Part shown: positions 1 through 9,317 of the stretch, piece by piece
Layout: every line of letters starts with the position of its first letter
How positions within the stretch are numbered: the stretch's first letter is position 1
Translations under genes and position numbers: made by a program
The notes under the pieces: model-generated
Told to the model about the DNA's origin: nothing
Database searches by the model: none
Seen by the model: the letters and a program-made list of their open reading frames with translations, nothing else
Source of the DNA: Gemmatimonadota bacterium
GTDB lineage: Bacteria > Gemmatimonadota > Gemmatimonadetes > Longimicrobiales > Longimicrobiaceae
Direction: 5' to 3'
Assembly (NCBI GenBank): GCA_019348475.1
Contig: JAHWJJ010000095.1
Coordinates: 1 to 11,109, forward strand
Length of the DNA stretch: 11,109 nucleotides

Positions 1-456
1 TTCCGCCGCGGGCGGCGCGGCCGGACGGCGCGGCTCGGGCGCGGCCACCGTCGGCTCCGGCTCCGGCGCGGCGACGATCGGCTCCGGCTCCGGCTGGCCG
101 GCGGGCTGAATGCTGACGCGGAACAGCGGGGCGCCGCGCGTTCCCGCCTCCTTGAGCCGCACCCGGTAGTCGCGGTCGTACAGCGAGCCGTGGCGCATCA
201 CCGAGTCCGTCAACTCCTCCTCCAGCTCCGCCGCCATCACCGCCACCGCCTGCGCCGCGTCCGGCCGCAGCGTCACCACCAGGGTGGTCAGCGGCAGCAT
301 CCGCACGTACTTGTCGGGGATGGCGCGCGAGTTGTCGCGGTCGATGGCGTCCCCCAGCGCCAGCTTGATCTCGGGGATGGCCTCGCGAAGAAACGAGTCC
401 AGCAGCGGCTCTTCCACCGCGTCGTGCGGGCGGCTGGCCGGGGTAAAGTCGGTCAT
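1..456 (-). CDS. FhaA-like protein, N-terminal domain (partial, runs off left edge)
   Basis: The frame is open from an ATG at 456 to the window edge, giving 152 residues with no stop. Residues about 15-117 resemble the N-terminal DUF3662 domain of FhaA. The segment IPDKYVRMLPLTTLVVTLRP is followed by an acidic helix (MAAELEEELTDSV), then a strand pattern ending APLFRVSIQPAG. A Pro/Glu/Ala linker with PEPEP repeats follows, which in FhaA-type proteins joins this domain to a C-terminal FHA domain; that domain would lie outside the window. FHA domains bind phosphothreonine, so the likely role is a cytoplasmic adaptor that reads Ser/Thr-kinase marks near the wall-synthesis proteins. The ATG overlaps the phosphatase stop in an ATGA junction (453-456). 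No Shine-Dalgarno is evident, so translational coupling is likely. The domain call rests on pattern resemblance only. Confidence 0.72.
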   Translation of the reverse strand, partial: MTDFTPASRPHDAVEEPLLDSFLREAIPEIKLALGDAIDRDNSRAIPDKYVRMLPLTTLVVTLRPDAAQAVAVMAAELEEELTDSVMRHGSLYDRDYRVRLKEAGTRGAPLFRVSIQPAGQPEPEPIVAAPEPEPTVAAPEPRRPAAPPAAE

Positions 457-1706
457 GGCTGCGTCGTCGGAGTGGCGGGGCGCGTCCCCGTCGCCGGCTG
501 TCCCGTCGCCGGCTGTCCCGCGGCCGGCTGTCCCGCGGCCGGCGGCGGCGCGGCCGGCGGCGCGGCGGCGGACGGGTTCGCGGCCCCCGGGAGGACGAGC
601 GAATCCGCCGCCAGCCCCGTGGTGTCGCCGATGGCGGCGCGGGCGCGCAGGGTGCGCACCTCGTTGCGCAGGCTGTCCACCTGCGCCGCCAGCGCCGGGT
701 CGCCGCCGGCGCCGCCGCGGGTGGCCGCCCAGGCGGCGTACCCGGCAAGGCCCAGCGCCAGCAGCGCCAGCACCAGGGCGATGCCGCCCATCTTCGAAGA
801 GCGTCGGGGCCCGGTCACGTCCACCTCCGGCGGCGGGTTGAACAGGTTGCGCGGCGCGCTCGCGGTGGATGCGCCCGCGGCCGGCGCGGCGGCCGAGGAC
901 GTCCGGCGCGGGGGCGAGGGCATGGTGTCGCCGCCGCCGTCCAGCACGCGCACCGCGACCACGGTGTAGTTGTCGTCCGGGCCCCGCTCTTCCACCTTGC
1001 GGGTGATGGATTCGCAGATGCGCTCGGACGAGGCCAGGGCCATCGCCTCGCCCAGTTCGTCCAGCCGCATGGCCTTGGTCACGCCGTCGCTCACCAGCAG
1101 GTACGTCCACCCGGCGCGGACGGGGATCCAGGCGGCCTCCGCCTCGCCGCCGCGGCCCACCGCCCGCTGCAGCTTGTTGCTCCCGGGCGAGTCGGGGATC
1201 TCGTCCAGCGCGATCTCGCCCGCCTCCCAGCGCGCGTACGCCGGCGTGTGGTCGCGCGTCTCCAGCCGCACCGTGCCGTCCGGCGAGCGGCTGAGGATGC
1301 GCACGTCGCCCACGTGCGCGCCGATCCATCCCACGTCACCACCGCGGTCCACCGACAGCGCCATCAGCGCCAGCGCGCACCCCATCCCCCCGCGCTCGTC
1401 CGGCGACTGCTGCGCCAGCCGCGCCACCGCCTCGTCCGCGTGGCGCACGGCGTAGCGGGCGCCGTCCAGGCTGCGGATCTCCGCCCCCTGCACCAGCGCC
1501 GACAGCGCCGTGTCGGCGGCCAGCCGGCCGGCCCGCTCGCCCCCCATCCCGTCCGCCACCGCCACCACGCCGCGCGTGGCGAAGGCGTCCACGTCGAACG
1601 CGTCCTGGTTCTCCTTGCGCGGCCCCTGCGCGCTGGCGCCCGCCACGTCGAACAGCAGGCCGTGCAGCGGCACCGGCGGCAGGGCGTGGTTCACGTCATC
1701 GCTCAT
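453..1706 (-). CDS. PP2C-family Ser/Thr protein phosphatase with membrane anchor and extracytoplasmic tail (PstP-like)
   Basis: The product is 417 residues. Residues 15-256 are a PP2C (PPM) metal-dependent phosphatase domain. Signature motifs are RKENQD (30-35), VADGMGG (50-56), HVGDVR (131-136), LVSDGVT (204-210) and GPDDNYT (242-248), whose aspartates bind the two catalytic metals. An Ala/Pro/Ser juxtamembrane linker (260-305) follows. It contains several Thr/Ser that kinases could modify. One transmembrane helix spans about 308-328. The tail begins with a predicted coiled coil (about 337-358) and ends in low-complexity A-x-G-Q-P repeats. This topology matches actinobacterial PstP, which removes phosphates from PASTA kinases and their division and wall targets. 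The ATG overlaps the SEDS stop as ATGA (1703-1706), with GGGGA upstream. The tail is longer and more repetitive than in typical PstP. The phosphatase call is firm; its targets are inferred from the operon. Confidence 0.92.
   Translation of the reverse strand: MSDDVNHALPPVPLHGLLFDVAGASAQGPRKENQDAFDVDAFATRGVVAVADGMGGERAGRLAADTALSALVQGAEIRSLDGARYAVRHADEAVARLAQQSPDERGGMGCALALMALSVDRGGDVGWIGAHVGDVRILSRSPDGTVRLETRDHTPAYARWEAGEIALDEIPDSPGSNKLQRAVGRGGEAEAAWIPVRAGWTYLLVSDGVTKAMRLDELGEAMALASSERICESITRKVEERGPDDNYTVVAVRVLDGGGDTMPSPPRRTSSAAAPAAGASTASAPRNLFNPPPEVDVTGPRRSSKMGGIALVLALLALGLAGYAAWAATRGGAGGDPALAAQVDSLRNEVRTLRARAAIGDTTGLAADSLVLPGAANPSAAAPPAAPPPAAGQPAAGQPATGQPATGTRPATPTTQP
490..544. repeat. 15-bp tandem repeat inside the phosphatase gene
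   Basis: Units of GTCGCCGGCTGTCCC occur at 490-504 and 505-519. A variant beginning GCGGCC lies at 520-534, and a degenerate fourth copy starts at 535. On the minus strand they encode the pentapeptide repeats AAGQP/ATGQP near the C-terminus of the phosphatase tail. Because the period is a multiple of three, copy-number change would lengthen or shorten the tail without shifting frame. Confidence 0.9.
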
Positions 1707-3343
1707 CGGATGCGGATCCCCGTGGCATGCGGCCCGGCCACCGGGGGCGCGAGCGCTTCGTCCATGATGTCCTCGCGGGCCCTGCGGTGGCTCACCCCCG
1801 CGGCCAGCCCCACGGCGAACGCCGAGGCGAGCAGCTTGGCCCCGCCGTGCGCCGCGAACGCCGTGGCCACGCCGGTCAGCGGGATCAGCCGGATCCCCCC
1901 CAGCGTGGCCAGCCAGAAGGGGATGCCGATCAGCATGGCCACCCCCGTCACCAGCGTCCGCTCGAAGGCGCCCGACTCGCGCGCCGCCGCGCTCAGCAGC
2001 TGGACGATGAACAGCGTGTAGAGCAGCACCAGCGACACGGCGCCGGCCCACCCCCAGTGCGTGGCGATGGCGGTGATGAAGCCGTCGTCCGCCGCGTTGG
2101 GCGCCGTTTCGGCGTGCCCCCGGCCGGGCCCCTCGCCCAGCAGGCCGCCCTCGATCACGTTCGCGTCGAACAGCTTCATCTGGTGCAGCTTGGCCGCCCA
2201 CGCCTCCTGCTGCGGCTCGGTCATCTGCGAGACGTCCTTGTACGGATCGTACGCCAGCTCCAGCCGCGTGGCCGAGCGCTCGTCCACGTTGAAGGCGGCG
2301 AACACCAGCGCGGCCCACACCACCAGCATCAGCCCCGCCCACCATCCCCGCCGGGTCCCCACCAGCAGCATGGCCGCCATGGACCCCGCCAGCACGATGG
2401 ACAGCCCCAGCTCGCGGATGATGAGGAAGGGGATGACGGGCGCCGCCCCGTACAGGAACAGGTTCAGCAGCCGCCGCCCCTCGATCACCGCGCCGGGGCG
2501 GGCCAGGTTGTACGCGTCCTCCGCCAGCGTGGCGGCCCAGATGACGATGAAGATGGGAAGGAACAGCTCCCACGGCGTCATCCGCCCCACCTTCCCCAGC
2601 TCCGTGAACCCGATGGTCAGCACGAAGAAGATGCCCAGCGTGGGGACGAACGGGATCAGCCGCCGGTTGCGCACCCAGCGCATCACCCCCGGCTCGCGGG
2701 AGAGAAGGAAGCCCACCAGCAGCGCAAAGGGCGCGACGAAGACGGAGAAGTGCGCCGCCGAACGCGCGAAGAAGCCGCGCGACCGCAGCTCGCGCTCCTC
2801 CGCGCGCGCGAACGGGTCCGGGATTTCCGGCGGCGTTCCCTGGTAGACCACGGCGCGCCGCTCCTCGCTGTACGCGCGCTCGATCGAGGTGAGCCGCGCG
2901 CGCGTGGCCTTGAGGTCGTTCGCCCGCGCCCGCGCGCTCCCCGTGGCCTGGTAGGCGGGGTCCGTGAACAGCTGGAACTGCGTGGGGCGGGTGATGCTGA
3001 AGATCAGGATCGGCAGCACCACCAGTGCCCAGCTTCCCCGGTACCCCAGCCCCCGCAGCGCCACCAGCACCGCGAACCACGCCGCCAGCGCCACGCCGTC
3101 GCGGATGAAGGTGCCCCCCGCCCCCGGCGAGGTGCCGTGCTGCGGCCACACGCCGGTCACGATGGAAAAGTGCGCCGCCACGTAGAACGCCGAAGCCAGC
3201 AGCAGCCCCCACCACAGAAAGCCGGGGAACACCCGCCCCGCGCGCCGTTCCGAGGGCAGGTTGTGCGGCTTCAGGCGGACGGTGACGCCCTCCGGCTGCG
3301 GGCCGGCCGGGCGCCCGCGGCGGAACAGGTCGCGAAGCGCCAT
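1703..3343 (-). CDS. divergent SEDS-family (RodA/FtsW) peptidoglycan glycosyltransferase
   Basis: The product is 546 residues of multi-spanning membrane protein. SEDS proteins polymerise lipid II into glycan strands with a class B PBP partner. Family landmarks are visible in order. RMTPWELFLPIFI (254-266) stands where QPSE-type motifs sit, and IIRELGLSIVL (308-318) where QPDLGT sits. GEGPGRG (403-409) is followed by ADDGFITAI (418-426), in which D420 aligns without gaps to the catalytic Asp of TDFIF. PLTGVATAFAAHGGAK (488-503) matches PLTGxxLPFxSYGGS. The otherwise usual EE pair after TDFIF is replaced by Thr-His. A hydrophilic, charged segment of about 75 residues (118-195) separates the early membrane helices and is longer than in ordinary RodA. 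The start ATG shares one base with the PBP stop (TGATG), and a G-run precedes it. Coupling to the adjacent PBP supports a cognate SEDS-bPBP pair. Whether it is a RodA (elongation) or FtsW (division) type cannot be settled from sequence; the neighbours favour RodA-like. Confidence 0.88.
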   Translation of the reverse strand: MALRDLFRRGRPAGPQPEGVTVRLKPHNLPSERRAGRVFPGFLWWGLLLASAFYVAAHFSIVTGVWPQHGTSPGAGGTFIRDGVALAAWFAVLVALRGLGYRGSWALVVLPILIFSITRPTQFQLFTDPAYQATGSARARANDLKATRARLTSIERAYSEERRAVVYQGTPPEIPDPFARAEERELRSRGFFARSAAHFSVFVAPFALLVGFLLSREPGVMRWVRNRRLIPFVPTLGIFFVLTIGFTELGKVGRMTPWELFLPIFIVIWAATLAEDAYNLARPGAVIEGRRLLNLFLYGAAPVIPFLIIRELGLSIVLAGSMAAMLLVGTRRGWWAGLMLVVWAALVFAAFNVDERSATRLELAYDPYKDVSQMTEPQQEAWAAKLHQMKLFDANVIEGGLLGEGPGRGHAETAPNAADDGFITAIATHWGWAGAVSLVLLYTLFIVQLLSAAARESGAFERTLVTGVAMLIGIPFWLATLGGIRLIPLTGVATAFAAHGGAKLLASAFAVGLAAGVSHRRAREDIMDEALAPPVAGPHATGIRIR

Positions 3344-4935
3344 CAGCGCGCCCCCCCGGCCATGGCCGTCCCCCGAGGCACGCCGCCTTCGCCGCTCCCC
3401 GGCGTCACCATCTGCGGCTGCTGGGCCATGAACTTCGTCATCTCGCCCGCGATGGTGGCCGGCGCGCGCCCGCCCTGCCCGCCGCGCTGCAGGTAGACGA
3501 CGATGGTGTAGCGGGCCCGCCCGTCGGGGCCGTACATCAGCCCCGCGAACCAGGCGTCGGGGCGGGGCGCGTTCGCCACGTCCGCCGTCCCCGTCTTTCC
3601 CCCCAGGTCCCACCCGGTGTTGGCGAAGCGCGCCTTGGCCAGCTGCGCCGTCCCGGAGTCCACCACCGTCAGCATGGCCTCCTGCAGGTTGCGCGCGGTG
3701 GTTTCCTTCATGATCCGCCGCCCCGCGCCCCGCTCTTCCAGCTGATCCCACTCCAGCGTGGGCGGCAGCATCACGCCGCCGTTGCCGATGGCCTGCAGAA
3801 AGCGGGAGATGGCGAGCGGCGTCACGTCCACCGGCCCCTGGCCGATGGCGATCTGCCCCCACTCGTGCGCCGTGAAGCGCGGGGCGAAGCGCACGCGCAC
3901 CGGCGGCGGGGTCATCCGCCGCGCCCAGGCGGGGTTCCCCGTGTTCCAGAAGTCCGGCTCCGCCGCGCTGGGCGGCCCCTCGCCATAGGTGACGAAGCCG
4001 AAGCGCTGGTAGGCGTCGCGAAAGGCGTCCACGCCCAGCCGCTCGCGCATCTCCAGCGCCATCCGCACCGCCGCCGTGTTGCAGCTCACCCGCAGCATTC
4101 CCGTGGGGATGCTGATGGAGGCGTACTCGTGGCTCTCGAAGTTGCGGATGCGCGCGTTCCCCGTCTGGATGGACGGCGGGCACGGCATGCGCGTGTCGGG
4201 AAGGCCGCTCTCCCACCAGAGCGCGGCCACGGCCAGCTTGAAGACGGAGCCCGGCGGCGCGTAGCGCTTGATGCCGAAGGGGGGGTCCTCCGGCCCCCCG
4301 CTGGCCGCGTAGGCGATCAGCGAGCCGGTCTGCACGTCCTGCACGATGATGGCGCCCTTCAGGTTCGTGGCGTCCAGCAGCTGGTACGCGGCGCGGGTGG
4401 GCGCGGCGCACAGCGTCAGCCGCAGGTCCGTCCCCACGGCGTGCAGCTCGCTCTGCTCGCCGAAGGTGCGCGGCTCGCGCAGCCGGCTGGCGAACAGCCG
4501 CTCCACCGTGTAGTCGCGGTCCTCCGCGCCCCGCCCTCCGCCCACCAGGTTGGCCCCCGCCTCGCCCAGCGGGTAGACGCGCTGCACCTCGCCGTCACGC
4601 AGGCCGTAGCGGGCCAGGGCGCGCTCGTCCTCGCCGGTGCAGTCCAGGATCCACCCGCGCACGTCGCCGCGGGCGCGCTCGGCCTCGCGCGGGTCGCCCC
4701 AGCGGCGCCAGGCCATGCGCCCCTCGGTGATCTCCTCCGCGTTCCACAGCAGGCGCGCGTGCCCCCACGCGTAGAGGGCGGCAAGGACCAGCATGCCCAG
4801 CGCCAGGCGAATGGCCCAGCGCTCGCGGCGCTCGCGGATGGCGGCGCGCACCCAGCGCGCCAGCGCGATCAGCGCCCCCGCGCCGAACGCGATCACCACC
4901 CCGCGCAAGATCCAGTTGAGTACGGTTTCCAGCAC
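3343..4935 (-). CDS. class B penicillin-binding protein (D,D-transpeptidase)
   Basis: The product is 530 residues. It cross-links peptidoglycan stem peptides outside the membrane. The active-site triad is complete: SVFK with nucleophile S230, SCN (284-286) and KTGT (447-450). Upstream, RGWILDCTGEDERALARYG (93-111) corresponds to the RGxIxDRNGxxLA dimerisation-region signature, with Cys replacing Arg, and RVYPLGEAGANLVG (119-132) matches PbpA/FtsI-type pedestal sequence. The family usually has one N-terminal helix, but two hydrophobic segments are seen here (about 5-27 and 43-58), which would require an N-out or hairpin arrangement unless one is not membrane-spanning. The start is GTG at 4935, 7 bp after the FHA stop, without a clear Shine-Dalgarno. 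It is preferred because it keeps the first helix. Gene order next to a SEDS protein implies a cognate polymerase-transpeptidase complex. Overall it resembles actinobacterial PbpA more than E. coli PBP2. Confidence 0.93.
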   Translation of the reverse strand: MLETVLNWILRGVVIAFGAGALIALARWVRAAIRERRERWAIRLALGMLVLAALYAWGHARLLWNAEEITEGRMAWRRWGDPREAERARGDVRGWILDCTGEDERALARYGLRDGEVQRVYPLGEAGANLVGGGRGAEDRDYTVERLFASRLREPRTFGEQSELHAVGTDLRLTLCAAPTRAAYQLLDATNLKGAIIVQDVQTGSLIAYAASGGPEDPPFGIKRYAPPGSVFKLAVAALWWESGLPDTRMPCPPSIQTGNARIRNFESHEYASISIPTGMLRVSCNTAAVRMALEMRERLGVDAFRDAYQRFGFVTYGEGPPSAAEPDFWNTGNPAWARRMTPPPVRVRFAPRFTAHEWGQIAIGQGPVDVTPLAISRFLQAIGNGGVMLPPTLEWDQLEERGAGRRIMKETTARNLQEAMLTVVDSGTAQLAKARFANTGWDLGGKTGTADVANAPRPDAWFAGLMYGPDGRARYTIVVYLQRGGQGGRAPATIAGEMTKFMAQQPQMVTPGSGEGGVPRGTAMAGGAR

Positions 4936-4942
4936 GGTCGGT

Positions 4943-5686
4943 TCAGCCGGCGTGGGCCAGGCGCAGCACCGTGTTCCCCATCCGCACCGTGTCGCCCACG
5001 TTCAGGGCGCGCTCCTGGTGCGGGGGAAGGGGCTGCTCGTTGACGAAGGTGCGGTTCTTGGAATCCAGGTCCGTCACCGTTACGCGGCCGCCGCGGGCGG
5101 TAAAGCGGGCGTGGCGGCCCGACATGTAGCGGTCGCCGGTGGCCTGCACGCCGGGTTCGGGCTTGCGCCCCAGGGTGGCCTCGCCGTCGATGCGCACCGG
5201 CTCGCGCAGCGTCTCGGAGCTGACCACCTCCAGCACGGCGCCGCCGCCCCCCACGTGCGCGCCCCCGTACGCGGGCGCGCCGCCCGCCCCGCCGTACGCG
5301 GGGGCCGGCCGCTCCGGGACCAGCGCGCGGTCCGGGCGGGGGGCGTTGCTGGCGCTGGCGGGCTCGGCGCGCGGGGGCTCCAGCCCCAGCGGTTTTACGT
5401 GCGCGAACTCGCGCTTGGTGTCGAGCACCACCACCTCCACCCGCAGCCCCGCGCGCGCGATGCCGTTGTCCTGCGCCCACTGCGCGGCGAAGCGGCGCAG
5501 GTGGTCGGCCTCATCGCGGGCCCACAGGCTGGGGTTCATCCCGGGGGGAACCAGGTCGGTGGATGCGTACACGCGCAGGTCCGGCGCGGTGCGGCGGTCG
5601 GCGTAGCGCCACAGCGCCTCGCGAACGCCGTCTTCCAGCTGCTGCCGTAGCGTGGGGCGCAGGAGCTTGCGGAATGCGTTGATCAT
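4943..5686 (-). CDS. FHA-domain protein with DUF3662-like N-terminus (FhaA-like)
   Basis: The product is 247 residues. The N-terminal part (1-105) starts MINAFRKLLRPTLRQQLEDG and continues with DLVPPGMNPSLW and a basic-to-strand pattern (RVEVVVLDTKREFAHV), in the manner of the FhaA N-terminal domain. An Ala/Pro/Gly linker (106-150) contains two APAYGGA copies. Residues 152-245 are an FHA domain with LGR (172-174), SGRHARF (189-195) and DSKNRTFVNE (208-217). The canonical SRxH is spaced differently (SGRH), and N-G-T is N-R-T. FHA domains dock on phosphothreonine peptides, so this cytoplasmic protein probably links kinase signalling to the PBP/SEDS pair encoded just downstream. The ATG at 5686 was chosen over an in-frame start 48 bases upstream because conserved-looking sequence begins here and the longer start would leave almost no leader. 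The RBS is weak (GGA). Confidence 0.87.
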   Translation of the reverse strand: MINAFRKLLRPTLRQQLEDGVREALWRYADRRTAPDLRVYASTDLVPPGMNPSLWARDEADHLRRFAAQWAQDNGIARAGLRVEVVVLDTKREFAHVKPLGLEPPRAEPASASNAPRPDRALVPERPAPAYGGAGGAPAYGGAHVGGGGAVLEVVSSETLREPVRIDGEATLGRKPEPGVQATGDRYMSGRHARFTARGGRVTVTDLDSKNRTFVNEQPLPPHQERALNVGDTVRMGNTVLRLAHAG

Positions 5687-5733
5687 CGGTGGTCCGGATT
5701 CTACGTTGGGTCGCCGCGGCGCCCGCTGTCGCA

Positions 5734-5762
5734 ATATCAGGACCGGCGCCCTGCCGCGGCAA
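5734..5762 (-). promoter_or_regulatory. candidate sigma70-type promoter of the FHA-PBP-SEDS-PP2C operon
   Basis: On the minus strand TTGCCG (5757-5762) is followed, after 17 bases, by TGATAT (5734-5739). This would start transcription near 5727, leaving a leader of about 40 bases before the ATG at 5686. The -10 match is poor (3 of 6), but the region is a rare AT-containing patch in very GC-rich DNA. It is a guess based on spacing and composition. Confidence 0.3.
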
Positions 5763-5812
5763 GCGCGTGCGCCCGCCCCGGGATGAGGGCTGGATGAGGG
5801 TTTGGAAATGCG

Positions 5813-5868
5813 GTGCGTGAGTGCGTGAGTGCGTGAGTGCGTGAGTGCGGGAGTGCGGGAGTGCGGGA
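5813..5868. repeat. octamer tandem array, copy 1 (4 x GTGCGTGA, 3 x GTGCGGGA)
   Basis: Seven perfect 8-bp units lie head to tail: four GTGCGTGA at 5813-5844, then three GTGCGGGA at 5845-5868, then a decaying eighth. A related array lies at 8987-9038. The block change from one variant to the other suggests expansion of each subtype in turn. The period is not a multiple of three and the array is outside genes. Confidence 0.95.
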
Positions 5869-6007
5869 GTGGGCGCCCCGGCGCGTGAGGGCCCCCTGCC
5901 CGCCTGAGCAGTGCCGCAGACGTTTCAGCGATTCAGCCGGCGACGCCTGCGGCGCGGCTGATCCGGCACGGGAAACCAGCGACAACCGCAAAAGTCGAGG
6001 GTGGTTT

Positions 6008-6023
6008 GGGGGCACACGCCCCC
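6008..6023 (-). terminator. possible terminator hairpin after the frameshifted gene
   Basis: GGGGGC, a four-base loop ACAC and GCCCCC form a perfect 6-bp all-GC stem about 100 bases past the stop of the minus-strand gene at 6122. No T-run follows on the minus strand (AAACC), so intrinsic termination would be atypical. It is listed as a structural candidate only. Confidence 0.3.
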
Positions 6024-6074
6024 ACTCCGCCCTCACCCACCGCACGCTGTCGAAGCCTCGAGCGGCGCGGCTCA

Positions 6075-6109
6075 CTTCGGCGTGCTGGACGCGCCCGTGG
6101 AGGCGCACC
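6075..6109 (+). repeat. displaced 35-bp near-copy of ABC transporter coding sequence
   Basis: These bases match 8185-8219 at 34 of 35 positions; the single difference is G at 6099 against A at 8209. At the second site they encode [11 protein letters not shown], the end of the transmembrane domain of the ABC exporter. Here they lie in non-coding DNA and similarity stops abruptly on both sides. The fragment is in direct orientation relative to the gene. Confidence 0.9.
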
Positions 6110-6121
6110 TCTTCGCGCGGC

Positions 6122-7025
6122 CTACGGCTCACGCCAGCGGCGGACGAACGCGTCCACCTCCGGCGGCATCGGGAGGTGCCGGAACGGCGCCGCGAGCGCG
6201 GCCACCTCCGCGATGATCCCGGGGTGCAGCTCGCGGCGCTGCGAGGGGGTGAGCTCGCGGTGCCACTCGTCGAACCGGCGCGCCCGCTCCACCGTACGCG
6301 GCGCGAGCCGGTCCGCGACGCAGCGGGAGCAGAGCCGGCGCTCGCGCCATGGCCGCTTCCACGTCACCGTCTCGCGCCACTCCGACGCCGGGGCGCCGCA
6401 GAGGGCGCAGGCTTCCGGCGCCGGCGCGAATTCCAGGACGCGGGGATAGTCCCAGCGCCGCCGATGGCGGACGACGATCACGTCGCCCGTGTGCTCCGGC
6501 CACGGCGTATCGGGAAAATGAAAGAGGACGATCGCCACGGCGCCCGCCTGGTACGCCTGCCGCGCCAGCCGTGGATGCTGCCCCAGGTAATGGGCCGGCG
6601 GACCGGCGTTGTGGCCGCCCTCCATCGCCACGAAGTACCCGCGCCTCCATTCTTCGAGGGCCCCCGCGGTCACGAGCAGCGCCTCGTCCGCGCCGATGCA
6701 GCACACCGGCAGCTGCTCGTACGGTTCCCCCCGGCGGCGCGCGGGCTTCCAGGACATCGGCCGCTCGCGGACCATCTGCGCCATCCACTGCTCGGGACTG
6801 TGCGACACGTGGATCCGCGCCGTCCTGCAGGGTCGCCTGCAGCACTAGCGGCCGCGGGAGGCGGGCCAGGGCCAGCGCGGCGGACTCCACCTCCAGCACG
6901 CGTCCGCCCTCCGGGAGCCGAAACCGGTTGGGTGGCGCGTGCCCGAGCGCCACCCTGGCCCGCAGCTCCAGCAGTGCCACGCGCGCGGCGGTCACCTGCG
7001 GATCGTCGTCCAGGAGCGAGATCAT
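6122..7025 (-). pseudogene. unrecognised CxxC-CxxC protein gene, apparently frameshifted
   Basis: Two reading frames look like halves of one gene. The first starts at the ATG at 7025 and gives about 70 protein-like residues (MISLLDDDPQVTAARVALLE..., ending LVLQATLQDGA); beyond about 6816 that frame turns into Arg/Ala-rich noise. The second frame, one base on, becomes protein-like from about 6820 (ARIHVSHSPEQWMAQMV...) and runs to the TAG at 6122. A 2-bp loss in the GGCGCGG run at 6816-6821 would explain the break; restoring it reads LQDGARIHVSHSPEQ and gives about 300 residues. The second half contains CALC and CSRC pairs, suggesting a zinc ribbon, plus the hydrophobic stretch AGAVAIVLFHF. 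I do not recognise the family. Alternatively the second half is expressed alone from a GTG at 6808 (228 residues), or the break is a sequencing error. Confidence 0.62.
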
Positions 7026-7080
7026 GGGTCCAGCCGCGTGGGCGCAGGGCGGGGAGGGAAGGCGTGCCGGCAGGCCGGAG

Positions 7081-7109
7081 ATCCTACGCCGCGCATCCGC
7101 ATCCCACAA
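7081..7109 (-). promoter_or_regulatory. candidate promoter of the frameshifted gene
   Basis: On the minus strand TTGTGG (7104-7109), 17 bases, then TAGGAT (7081-7086). This has ideal sigma70 spacing and 4 of 6 matches in the -10. The predicted start is near 7074, giving a leader of about 48 bases before the ATG at 7025. Confidence 0.4.
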
Positions 7110-7124
7110 CCGGCGGATGGTTGT
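7106..7124. promoter_or_regulatory. inverted repeat spanning both divergent -35 elements
   Basis: ACAACC (7106-7111), a seven-base spacer and GGTTGT (7119-7124) form a perfect 6-bp dyad. Its arms lie on the -35 elements of the two back-to-back candidate promoters. It could be an operator for coordinated control, or simply two facing TTGT motifs. Confidence 0.3.
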
Positions 7125-7150
7125 TCCGGCGCGGCGGCGGGTGGTAAGAT
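7121..7150 (+). promoter_or_regulatory. candidate promoter of the ABC exporter
   Basis: TTGTTC (7121-7126), 18 bases, then TAAGAT (7145-7150, 4 of 6 matches). The predicted start is near 7157, about 27 bases before the GTG start at 7184. It faces away from the candidate promoter at 7081-7109. Confidence 0.45.
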
Positions 7151-7183
7151 GCCGCGGCCGAATCCGCCTCCTCATCCACCGGC

Positions 7184-8995
7184 GTGAACGTGTCCACCGA
7201 AACCCTTTCCGGCGCGGCGGATCGCACACACCCCCTGCGCCGGCTGGTCCGCTATGCGCGTCCGCACCGGCGTTCGGTGTGGCTGGCGACGCTCTGCTCG
7301 GTCCTGAACAAGCTCTTCGACCTGGCGCCCGAGGCGCTGATCGGCGCGGCGGTGGACGTGGTGGTGCGCGGAGAGCAGTCCCTCGTCGGCAGCCTGGGCT
7401 TTCCCGATCCGCGCCACCAGCTGATGGTGCTGGCGGCGATCACCTTCGTGGTGTGGCTGCTGGAGTCGCTGTTCGAGTACCTGTACGGCGTTCTCTGGCG
7501 CAACCTGGCCCAGACCGTCCAGCACGAGCTGCGGCAGCGGGCGTATTCGCACCTGCAGGACCTGGATCTCGCCTATTTCGAGGAGCGCAGCGCCGGCGGG
7601 CTGATGTCCGTCCTGGGCGACGACGTCAACCAGCTGGAGCGGTTCCTGGACCGCGGCGCCAACGAGATCATCCAGGTGGTGACGACGGTGGTGCTGGTGG
7701 GCGCCGCGTTCTTCGCCATGGCGCCGGAGGTGGCATGGATGGCCATGCTCCCCATGCCATTCGTGGTCTGGGGCTCCATCCGCTTTCAACGCCGGCTGGA
7801 GCCGCTGTACGCCGAGGTCCGCGAGCGCGCCGCGGCGGTCAACGCGCGGCTGGCCAGCAACCTGAGCGGCATTACCACCATCAAGGCCTACGCGGCCGAG
7901 GAGCACGAGCGCCGCCGCGTGGCCCGGGACAGCCAGGGCTACCGCGAGGCCAACCGCCGCGCCATCGCGTACAGCGCCGCCTTCGTGCCGCTCATCCGCA
8001 TCCTGATCCTGGTGGGCTTCACGGGGACGCTGGTGTTCGGGGGATTGCAGGCGCTGAACGGTGAGCTGGCCGTGGGCACGTACTCGTTCCTGGTCTACGT
8101 GACCCAGCGGCTGCTGTGGCCGCTCACCCGGCTCGGCGAAACGCTGGACCAGTACCAGCGGGCGATGGCCAGCACGCGCCGCATCTTCGGCGTGCTGGAC
8201 GCGCCCGTAGAGGCGCACCCCGGCCATCGCGCGCTGCCGGCGGAGAGGGTGCGCGGCGCGGTGGAGATGCGCGGGGTCACCTTCGCCTACCGCGGCCGCG
8301 CGCCCGTGCTGCGCGACTTTTCGCTGCACATCGCCCCGGGCGAGACGGTGGCCGTGGTGGGGCCCACGGGCTCCGGCAAGAGCACGCTGGTAAAGCTGCT
8401 GCTGCGCCTGTACGAGGTGGACGCGGGCGCCATCCTGCTGGACGGCACCGACATCCGCACCCTCCGGCTGGGGGACCTGCGCCGGTGCATCGGGCTGGTG
8501 AGCCAGGACGTGTTCCTGTTCCCCGGCACGGTGCGCGAAAACATCGCCTACGGGTCGTTCGGCGCCACGGCCCAGCAGGTGGAGCGCGCATCCCGCCTGG
8601 CGGAGGCGCACGAGTTCGTCACGGGGCTGCCCCAGGGGTACGAGACGGTCGTGGGCGAGCGGGGGCAGCGCCTTTCCGGCGGGCAGCGGCAGCGGATCGC
8701 CATCGCCCGGGCCATCCTCAAGGACCCGCCCATCCTGGTGCTGGACGAGGCGACCAGCGCGGTGGACAACGAGACCGAGGCCGCCATCCAGCGCTCGCTG
8801 GAGCACGTCAGCCGGGACCGCACGACCATCGCCATTGCGCACCGGCTTTCCACCGTCCGCAACGCGCACCGCATCTACGTGATGGACCGCGGCCGCATCG
8901 TGGAGCACGGACGCCACGAGGAGCTGGTGGACGCCGGCGGGATGTACGCCGCCCTCTGGCGGGTGCAGACGGGGGAGGTGGTGGGGAGTGCGTGA
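7184..8995 (+). CDS. ABC exporter half-transporter, fused membrane and ATPase domains
   Basis: The product is 603 residues, the normal length for an MsbA/LmrA-type half-transporter acting as a dimer in the inner membrane. The type IV (ABC1-exporter) transmembrane domain covers about 18-330, with coupling-helix sequence such as [20 protein letters not shown] (131-150) and [10 protein letters not shown] (231-240). The ATPase domain covers about 357-598. Its motifs are Walker [10 protein letters not shown] (393-401), Q-loop Gln 441 in [13 protein letters not shown], signature LSGGQRQR (497-504), Walker B ILVLDE (517-522) and H-loop H553 in IAIAHRLS. All catalytic residues are present. The start is GTG at 7184; a GTG at 7190 is possible, and no good Shine-Dalgarno precedes either. 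The stop codon (8993-8995) lies within an octamer repeat unit. Substrate cannot be read from sequence; lipid, peptide or drug export are all possible. Confidence 0.95.
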
Positions 8996-9038
8996 GGGGG
9001 GGAGTGCGTTAGTGCGGAAGTGCGTTAGTGCGTGAGTG
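8987..9038. repeat. octamer tandem array, copy 2, overlapping the ABC stop codon
   Basis: AGTGCGTG (8987), a G-rich unit (8995-9002), AGTGCGTT (9003), AGTGCGGA (9011), AGTGCGTT (9019), AGTGCGTG (9027) and a final AGTG keep a strict 8-bp register. It is the same family as the array at 5813-5868 but more diverged. The first unit encodes the last residues (Ser-Ala) and stop of the ABC exporter. Confidence 0.9.
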
Positions 9039-9208: not shown

Positions 9209-9317
9209 AGCGGATTTATCCGCTCATCGGCGTTTATCCGCCGATCGGGTTGATCCGCTCATCGGCGTTGATCCGCCGATCGGGTTGATCCGCTCATCGG
9301 ATTCGTTCGCTCATCGG
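9209..9317. repeat. 35-bp-period palindromic tandem repeat
   Basis: Two 35-bp units at 9230-9264 and 9265-9299 differ at one position. Half-units extend to both sides. GCTCATCGG recurs at 9222, 9257, 9292 and 9309 (spacing 35, 35, 17), and the perfect palindrome CCGATCGG at 9241 and 9276. The left end is itself an inverted repeat, AGCGGAT-TT-ATCCGCT (9209-9224). The array sits between two convergent genes. No coding potential is credible. Confidence 0.9.

Follow-up and report, generated by a model that had tools for sequence, protein, structure and literature searches.

A putative phosphothreonine signaling module around a third SEDS-class B PBP pair in Longimicrobiaceae

A conserved block with six or seven members

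Here, we present an analysis of a gene block for putative cell wall synthesis and phosphothreonine signaling on a contig of 11,109 nt (C35; GenBank JAHWJJ010000095.1; in the following, the window, which is the whole contig) from the 4.08-Mb genome of a Gemmatimonadota bacterium of the family Longimicrobiaceae (GCA_019348475.1; 504 contigs, 76.6% complete). From position 5686 down to position 1, the window is occupied by five minus-strand genes. These encode, in order of transcription, the FHA domain protein FHA1 (4943..5686; PF00498, 1.3e-14); a class B penicillin-binding protein (PBP) of 530 amino acids (3343..4935; PF00905 Transpeptidase, 3.3e-35, with the domain at nt 3442-4356); a SEDS protein of 546 amino acids (1703..3343; PF01098 FTSW_RODA_SPOVE, 1.8e-20, residues 254-521); a PP2C-type Ser/Thr phosphatase (453..1706; NF033484 Stp1/IreP, 8.6e-27; PF13672, 1.5e-8); and the 5' part of FHA2 (1..456; ORF5, 152 codons), which ends at the contig edge and was assigned by its match to a protein of the related genome G032. 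The five genes are closely packed: FHA1 and the PBP gene are separated by 7 nt, and all other neighbors overlap by 1 to 4 nt, with TGATG at the PBP/SEDS junction and ATGA at each of the SEDS/PP2C and PP2C/ORF5 junctions. An earlier note on this DNA had described five packed genes, and their order, coordinates, and family matches stand; the FHA2 part within the window, however, comprises a conserved N-terminal domain and the start of a linker and has no FHA domain based on Pfam. In a protein database search, the closest relatives with an organism name belong to Longimicrobium, Longimicrobiaceae, or Gemmatimonadota. The host does not belong to the actinobacteria, a case for which the note had provided. 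Altogether, we suggest that the window probably contains most of a phosphothreonine signaling module around a third SEDS-class B PBP pair.

The remainder of FHA2 lies on a second contig of the same genome (C40:1-516; locus L047), where it is followed by two genes for Ser/Thr kinases (772-2532 and 2814-4577; PF00069, 1.8e-41 and 4e-39). This would put them to the left of position 1, where the note had proposed to look for a kinase, and would make the set larger than the five genes that the note had described. The two contigs share no overlapping sequence, and we therefore infer their adjacency from G032, in which FHA2 and then the same two kinases are encoded on one contig; residues 1-134 of the G032 FHA2 protein match window 456-52 at 84% identity, and residues 175-350 match C40:1-513.

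In Longimicrobiaceae, six or seven such genes stand together in an order that does not vary. Using tblastn, because the gene caller missed genes in GC-rich DNA, we found the order FHA1-PBP-SEDS-PP2C-FHA2-kinase, within the reach of the contigs, in 21 of 21 family genomes examined and no alternative order among them. This recurrence argues that the order is not due to chance. All six genes are present in 16 genomes, in 14 of these on one contig, in G180 with FHA1 cut, and in G000 over two contigs, while the module is truncated at contig ends in five (G273, G243, G224, G300, and G301). The SEDS gene is present in 20 of the 21 genomes, G224 having FHA1 and the PBP gene at a contig end. G000 and G032 have two kinase genes, and in G180 the first kinase gene is followed by the contig end.

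Among 298 Gemmatimonadota genomes, a profile of FHA1 matched 10 (E≤1e-10) and a profile of the SEDS protein nine (E≤1e-40), all of Longimicrobiaceae, and neither matched in the 288 other genomes. The best 120 relatives each of the PBP, FHA1, and the SEDS protein are 58-93% identical to the window's proteins (59-93% for the SEDS protein), its own copies aside. For the SEDS protein, 170 weaker relatives at E≤1e-10 follow these 120; because the search of this large protein database scored the best 7,994 candidates, there may be relatives outside the phylum. A scan of genome contigs gave nine loci, six from Gemmatimonadota (L029-L034) and three with distant PBPs (L035-L037; 26-30% identity), of which, by eye, two have mre-like neighbors (L036 and L037) and the third shows no FHA gene (L035). 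A search of a plasmid collection with the PBP gave only matches below 60% identity and led to actinobacterial chromosome-like records. In those parts of the literature that our searches covered, including the topics of Gemmatimonad kinases and FHA proteins and of wall synthesis in the phylum, we found no description of the module.

FHA proteins, phosphatase, and kinases

FHA1 has a conserved N-terminal domain (residues 1-102), a Pro/Ala/Gly linker, and a C-terminal FHA domain (residues 171-237; nt 4976-5176). In an alignment of 26 rows, G-R, S-x-R-H, and S-x-N, taken here as the residues of the phosphothreonine pocket, are invariant. In the predicted model of FHA1, the FHA domain has a pLDDT of ~95, and all 50 fold matches listed are FHA-domain entries or contain one. 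Thus, FHA1 is predicted to have an FHA fold in which the residues of the phosphothreonine pocket are present. In the case of FHA2, the part on C40 encodes a divergent FHA-like domain that has no match to the Pfam FHA family, followed by a C-terminal DPDATQFG sequence; a DP[DE]xT motif is present at the end of FHA2 in 16 of 16 genomes. An FHA fold is predicted in a structure model of the full-length G032 relative, and comparison of the FHA2 sequence with solved structures gave weak FHA matches only (best E, 0.14).

The note had attributed a long FhaA-like N-terminal domain to both FHA proteins. This was not confirmed: FhaA_N (PF12401) has no match in the proteins of the window or in three full-length FHA2 relatives and none at E≤10 in the host genome, while three actinobacterial and one clostridial FhaA used as controls matched at 4e-23 to 1e-38. 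In profile-profile comparisons, FHA2 and FhaA_N gave a weakly suggestive result (P 0.0035 over 86 columns, probability 9%; control P 0.57). A kinship of FHA1 to FhaA_N, with no family match and P 0.043 over 19 columns, was rejected for lack of support, and the idea that the N-terminal domains of FHA1 and FHA2 are copies of each other was likewise unsupported (P 0.21). Both domains are predicted to be helix-strand-helix-strand-strand, which by itself shows little, and they were scarcely compared with solved structures because FHA-domain matches filled the fold searches of both models. As a separate observation, a lone FhaA_N protein occurs among the 298 Gemmatimonadota genomes (L098 1642-2469 in G038); by eye, it has an FHA-like C-terminus, and its 3.4-kb contig has no SEDS, PBP, or kinase gene.

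In the PP2C phosphatase, a single transmembrane segment is predicted at residues 309-327, and the C-terminal tail is rich in Pro/Ala. The protein scores 94 bits against NF033484, which is below the equivalog cut-off of 230 bits. Both kinases encoded on C40 have a Pkinase domain, a single hydrophobic segment, and TPR repeats. None of six scanned module kinases (L038 and L047, two each; L041 and L045, one each) has a PASTA match, and all have TPR repeats instead; in the available 76.6% of the host genome, PASTA matches are confined to contigs C41 and C503, which are without a kinase match. In the linker of the kinase KinB, a pattern search found acidic threonine motifs in 14 of 15 proteins, compared with 30 matches in a background of 56,550 amino acids derived from crude gene calls that include antisense frames. 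Independently, we note that the linkers of Nocardia PknA/PknB (L068 10166-13593) contain the sequences EDATHVL and DEDRTTFMG, which resemble the threonine motifs in the kinases of the module.

A third SEDS-class B PBP pair

The host genome also encodes a RodA that scores above the cut-off (TIGR02210, 371 bits) and lies beside a weak MreD match (below its cut-off), two PBP2 that score above the cut-off (524 and 542 bits), an FtsW of 326 bits (cut-off, 337.5) with neighbors that are mur-like by eye, and an FtsI-like PBP encoded after mraZ- and mraW-like genes (by eye). Because the genome has these RodA/PBP2- and FtsW/FtsI-type genes, the SEDS protein and the PBP of the module constitute a third pair. 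The window proteins did not reach the RodA (65.9 versus 336.7 bits) and PBP2 (122.4 versus 455 bits) equivalog cut-offs and in this respect do not qualify as a canonical elongasome RodA-PBP2 pair. The third pair is like the two others in that it combines the chemistry of a SEDS protein and a class B PBP. By contrast, it falls into separate, fully supported clades, while the SEDS proteins of the other pairs keep the QPSExxK motif. The contigs of the other pairs have no kinase match; FHA and PP2C genes were not searched for there. The two PBP2 paralogues that pass the MrdA cut-off in this one genome are at L054 and L056.

Relation to the actinobacterial and clostridial clusters

A kinase, a phosphatase, FHA readers, and a SEDS-PBP pair that are clustered for phosphothreonine control of the cell wall are known mainly from actinobacteria. 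The actinobacterial operon and the role of FhaA in wall synthesis are described in two reports (PMC3989709, PMC11898655). Four actinobacterial records have the order FhaA-FhaB-PP2C-SEDS-PBP-kinase-kinase, as annotated in L072 and L071 (no feature at the PP2C place) or as read from open reading frames in L068 and L070. In agreement with the note, the order in the window is rearranged relative to this cluster. The module resembles the actinobacterial fhaA-fhaB-pstP-rodA-pbpA-pknA-pknB cluster in that genes for two FHA proteins, a PP2C phosphatase, a SEDS protein, a class B PBP, and Ser/Thr kinases lie side by side, the second FHA domain of the module being counted by its predicted fold only. However, the gene orders differ; the module FHA proteins are without a match to FhaA_N, which is matched by the three actinobacterial FhaA scanned; the PBP is without a match (up to E=1) to the PbpA dimerization domain (PF21922, PBP_dimer_2), which does match the two actinobacterial PbpA scanned (matched controls: Nocardia, Actinomyces, and clostridial); the scanned module kinases carry TPR rather than PASTA; and the SEDS protein is very divergent and coexists with a canonical-type RodA/PBP2 pair.

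The clostridial genome G310 (L155) has, in a row, genes for FhaA, PP2C, a SEDS protein fused to a PBP, and a PASTA kinase. This block shares with the module the association of FHA, phosphatase, SEDS, PBP, and kinase genes and a short SEDS catalytic loop, while it has only one FHA protein, with FhaA_N, a fused SEDS-PBP, a PASTA kinase, and another order. Accordingly, although the functional set is the one that the note had assigned to actinobacteria, the association is not solely actinobacterial. The fusion protein has 837 residues (L155 8623-11136), and the block is flanked by genes that are rlmN- and rsgA-like by eye.

To place the third pair, we built unrooted trees of 40 SEDS proteins (five partial, duplicate, or fused-duplicate open reading frames of 45 were dropped first) and 46 of 67 PBPs (partial, duplicate, and class A open reading frames were dropped; the cut module PBP of G300 is absent). 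The module proteins form their own fully supported clades in both trees, with a branch length of 3.06 changes per column for SEDS and of 2.0 for the PBP. The SEDS tree separates 19 canonical FtsW/RodA proteins from the 16 module proteins, four actinobacterial RodA, and the clostridial fused SEDS (97/96); in a second tree, from which three long rows were dropped, the module proteins and the four actinobacterial RodA are separated from 17 canonical FtsW/RodA (100/98.8). Also, the SEDS catalytic loop is 2-3 residues shorter than the canonical loop in the module proteins, the four actinobacterial RodA, and the clostridial fused SEDS, and a profile of the family's SEDS proteins ranks the four actinobacterial RodA at the top of 24 others, two clearly (71 and 60 bits) and two by less than 2 bits (45.3 and 44.5 bits versus 44.0 for an FtsW). 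The SEDS tree favors a place for the module SEDS on the actinobacterial RodA side, where it forms a separate, very deep branch. Most likely, we suggest, the module is related by very old descent to the SEDS/PBP pairs found in the FHA clusters of actinobacteria and clostridia, its accessory domains having been replaced or having strongly diverged.

Several results weigh against this kinship. In the full SEDS tree, groupings of the module with Gemmatimonadota FtsW (p 0.174), all FtsW (p 0.09), or all canonical RodA (p 0.086) were not rejected, and a grouping with actinobacterial RodA alone was not the best but likewise not rejected (p 0.233). The mean identity of the module SEDS to actinobacterial RodA (19.7%) is no higher than that to Gemmatimonadota FtsW (20.6%), with group means spanning 16-21% for SEDS and 21-27% for PBP. 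The PBP tree has the same shape as the SEDS tree, but the actinobacterial side is supported at 94/81 only; a grouping of the module PBP with PBP2 (p 0.302) or FtsI (p 0.206) was not rejected, while one with actinobacterial PbpA alone had p 0.049. In the ranking by the PBP profile, a Gemmatimonadota PBP2 comes first, about equal to Nonomuraea PbpA (84.5 versus 84.2 bits). Thus, of the trees that the note had called for, that of the SEDS protein favors the actinobacterial RodA side, while the PBP tree does not decide between an actinobacterial and a PBP2/FtsI kinship. Given unrooted trees and the great length of the module branches, we regard a common origin with the actinobacterial cluster as favored but not proven.

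A tentative and less likely alternative is that Longimicrobiaceae assembled the cluster independently from their own duplicated, fast-evolving wall synthases and that it shares no descent with the actinobacterial module. The different gene order, the unmatched FhaA_N, PASTA, and PF21922 domains in the module proteins scanned, and the restriction of the module to one family in the phylum sample would all fit this scenario, as would a PBP compatible with PBP2 or FtsI kinship and a SEDS protein that is as similar to FtsW as to actinobacterial RodA and whose grouping with FtsW was not rejected in the full tree. However, a forced grouping of the module SEDS with the RodA of its own phylum had p 0.044 in that tree, and the SEDS tree and the short loop point to actinobacterial RodA, as, narrowly, does the profile ranking. 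The mean identity does not add to this, and we favor an ancient module, shared by descent, over independent assembly only tentatively.

Catalytic potential of the third pair

The PBP has two N-terminal hydrophobic segments and the motifs S230xxK, S284xN, and K447TG, which are invariant in 26 of 26 aligned relatives. Its best match among solved structures is 4mnr_A (73 bits with a profile). The SEDS protein has a layout that fits that of SEDS glycosyltransferases with ~10 transmembrane segments and the catalytic aspartate in the fourth periplasmic loop; 10 hydrophobic segments were predicted from hydropathy in two proteins, with a long loop at about residues 118-195. Asp420 (nt 2084-2086) aligns with the catalytic aspartate of RodA, Asp262 in Escherichia coli, and this residue and the proline five residues ahead of it are kept in 16 of 16 module proteins. 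By contrast, the window protein has TPWEL (nt 2564-2578) at the site of the QPSExxK motif of other SEDS proteins; the glutamine and lysine of this motif are present in none of the 16 module proteins, versus 24 of 24 (Gln) and 23 of 24 (Lys) other SEDS proteins. The periplasmic loop with this site is ~11 residues shorter in the aligner output, and the EE of GEELG is replaced in the module proteins.

According to a study of E. coli RodA (PMC10449877), Asp262 and Pro257 are both needed in vitro, the Gln111Ala substitution reduces activity in vitro, and the in vitro effect of Lys117Asn is modest, while the equivalent mutation in SpoVE is severe in vivo. Because the aspartate and proline are kept and the glutamine, lysine, and EE are lost, and considering these mutants, we suggest that the activity of the module SEDS is likely retained but altered. 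The loss of the glutamine and lysine speaks against this suggestion to the extent that it could result in weak or no polymerase activity. Taken further, the SEDS protein might no longer be a peptidoglycan polymerase and serve as a scaffold or act on another lipid-linked sugar. The motif changes in all 16 proteins and the effects of the Gln111Ala and Lys117Asn/SpoVE substitutions would be consistent with such a change; however, we consider it rather unlikely given the conserved aspartate and proline, both of which RodA needs, and a partner PBP that keeps all of its catalytic motifs.

Flanking genes and repeats

Upstream from FHA1, a minus-strand gene (6122-6808) encodes a 228-residue protein with CxxC pairs that is zinc-ribbon-like by eye and scores below all family cut-offs. 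Further upstream are a plus-strand gene for an ABC exporter and a minus-strand gene for an amidase with SH3 domains. A scan of window positions 5600-7200 for promoters and terminators found none. Tandem 8-bp repeats (GTGCGTGA-like) are present in intergenic regions at window positions 5813-5871 and 8984-9038. Similar repeats, with THALTH/SRTHALTH-like frames, are found on C40, where they separate FHA2 from the first kinase gene, and on other contigs, as if dispersed intergenically. In addition, a 35/52-bp tandem repeat lies at 9211-9317 between the ABC exporter and amidase genes.

Discussion

Our suggestion of a phosphothreonine signaling module builds on gene content, the fixed order, the kinase neighbors, the catalytic residues of the PBP, the SEDS aspartate, and the conserved threonine motifs in FHA2 and the kinase linker. 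It is best called a version, distinct from those known before, of the FHA/kinase/phosphatase/SEDS-PBP module that is fixed in one family of Gemmatimonadota. The note had offered transfer with reshuffling as an alternative to an ancient shared architecture; the identical functional set and the SEDS protein on the actinobacterial side would fit transfer of the actinobacterial cluster, but the branch lengths (3.06 and 2.0 changes per column), the presence of the module in all 21 family genomes examined, and the differing accessory domains speak against it. A recent event is unlikely, and a transfer, improbable as it is, would have to be very old.

How might the module work? In the model that we propose, the SEDS protein would polymerize and the PBP cross-link wall glycan as a pair, alongside the canonical-type RodA/PBP2 and FtsW/FtsI. 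A membrane kinase that carries TPR repeats, rather than PASTA, beyond its single hydrophobic segment would sense the state of the envelope; its phosphorylation targets would be its own DDRTxLA repeats and the DPDAT motifs of FHA2. FHA1 and FHA2 would bind the phosphothreonine sites and thereby recruit or restrain the synthase, and the PP2C phosphatase would reset the system. Certain points caution against this model. Phosphothreonine control of the third pair is the most likely function predicted from the genes, and phosphorylation of the threonine motifs and their binding by the FHA domains are likewise deduced from sequence. Moreover, a DPDAT motif is also present in another kinase of the host genome (L049). 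Among nine kinases from actinobacterial and clostridial clusters, we found by eye a close threonine motif in the two Nocardia kinases only.

More speculatively, the module could represent a third major kind of SEDS-class B PBP pair, neither FtsW/FtsI nor RodA/PBP2, with a remodeled SEDS active region that has lost the QPSExxK glutamine and lysine and an ancient tie to a switch composed of a threonine kinase, FHA proteins, and a phosphatase. According to this idea, which we regard as possible but doubtful, actinobacteria and clostridia would have kept one version and Longimicrobiaceae another, in which a kinase with TPR repeats stands in for the PASTA sensor and the switch is the DPDAT tail at the C-terminus of FHA2.

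With its altered motif, the SEDS protein is a natural case for testing which residues are required in wall polymerases. Longimicrobium terrae, a cultured member of the family in which the module is expected, would offer an organism in which the role of the extra synthase could be asked. Finally, a fixed Gemmatimonadota version of the module beside the RodA- and FtsW-type pairs would mean that the coupling of phosphothreonine signaling to wall synthesis is much older or has arisen repeatedly.

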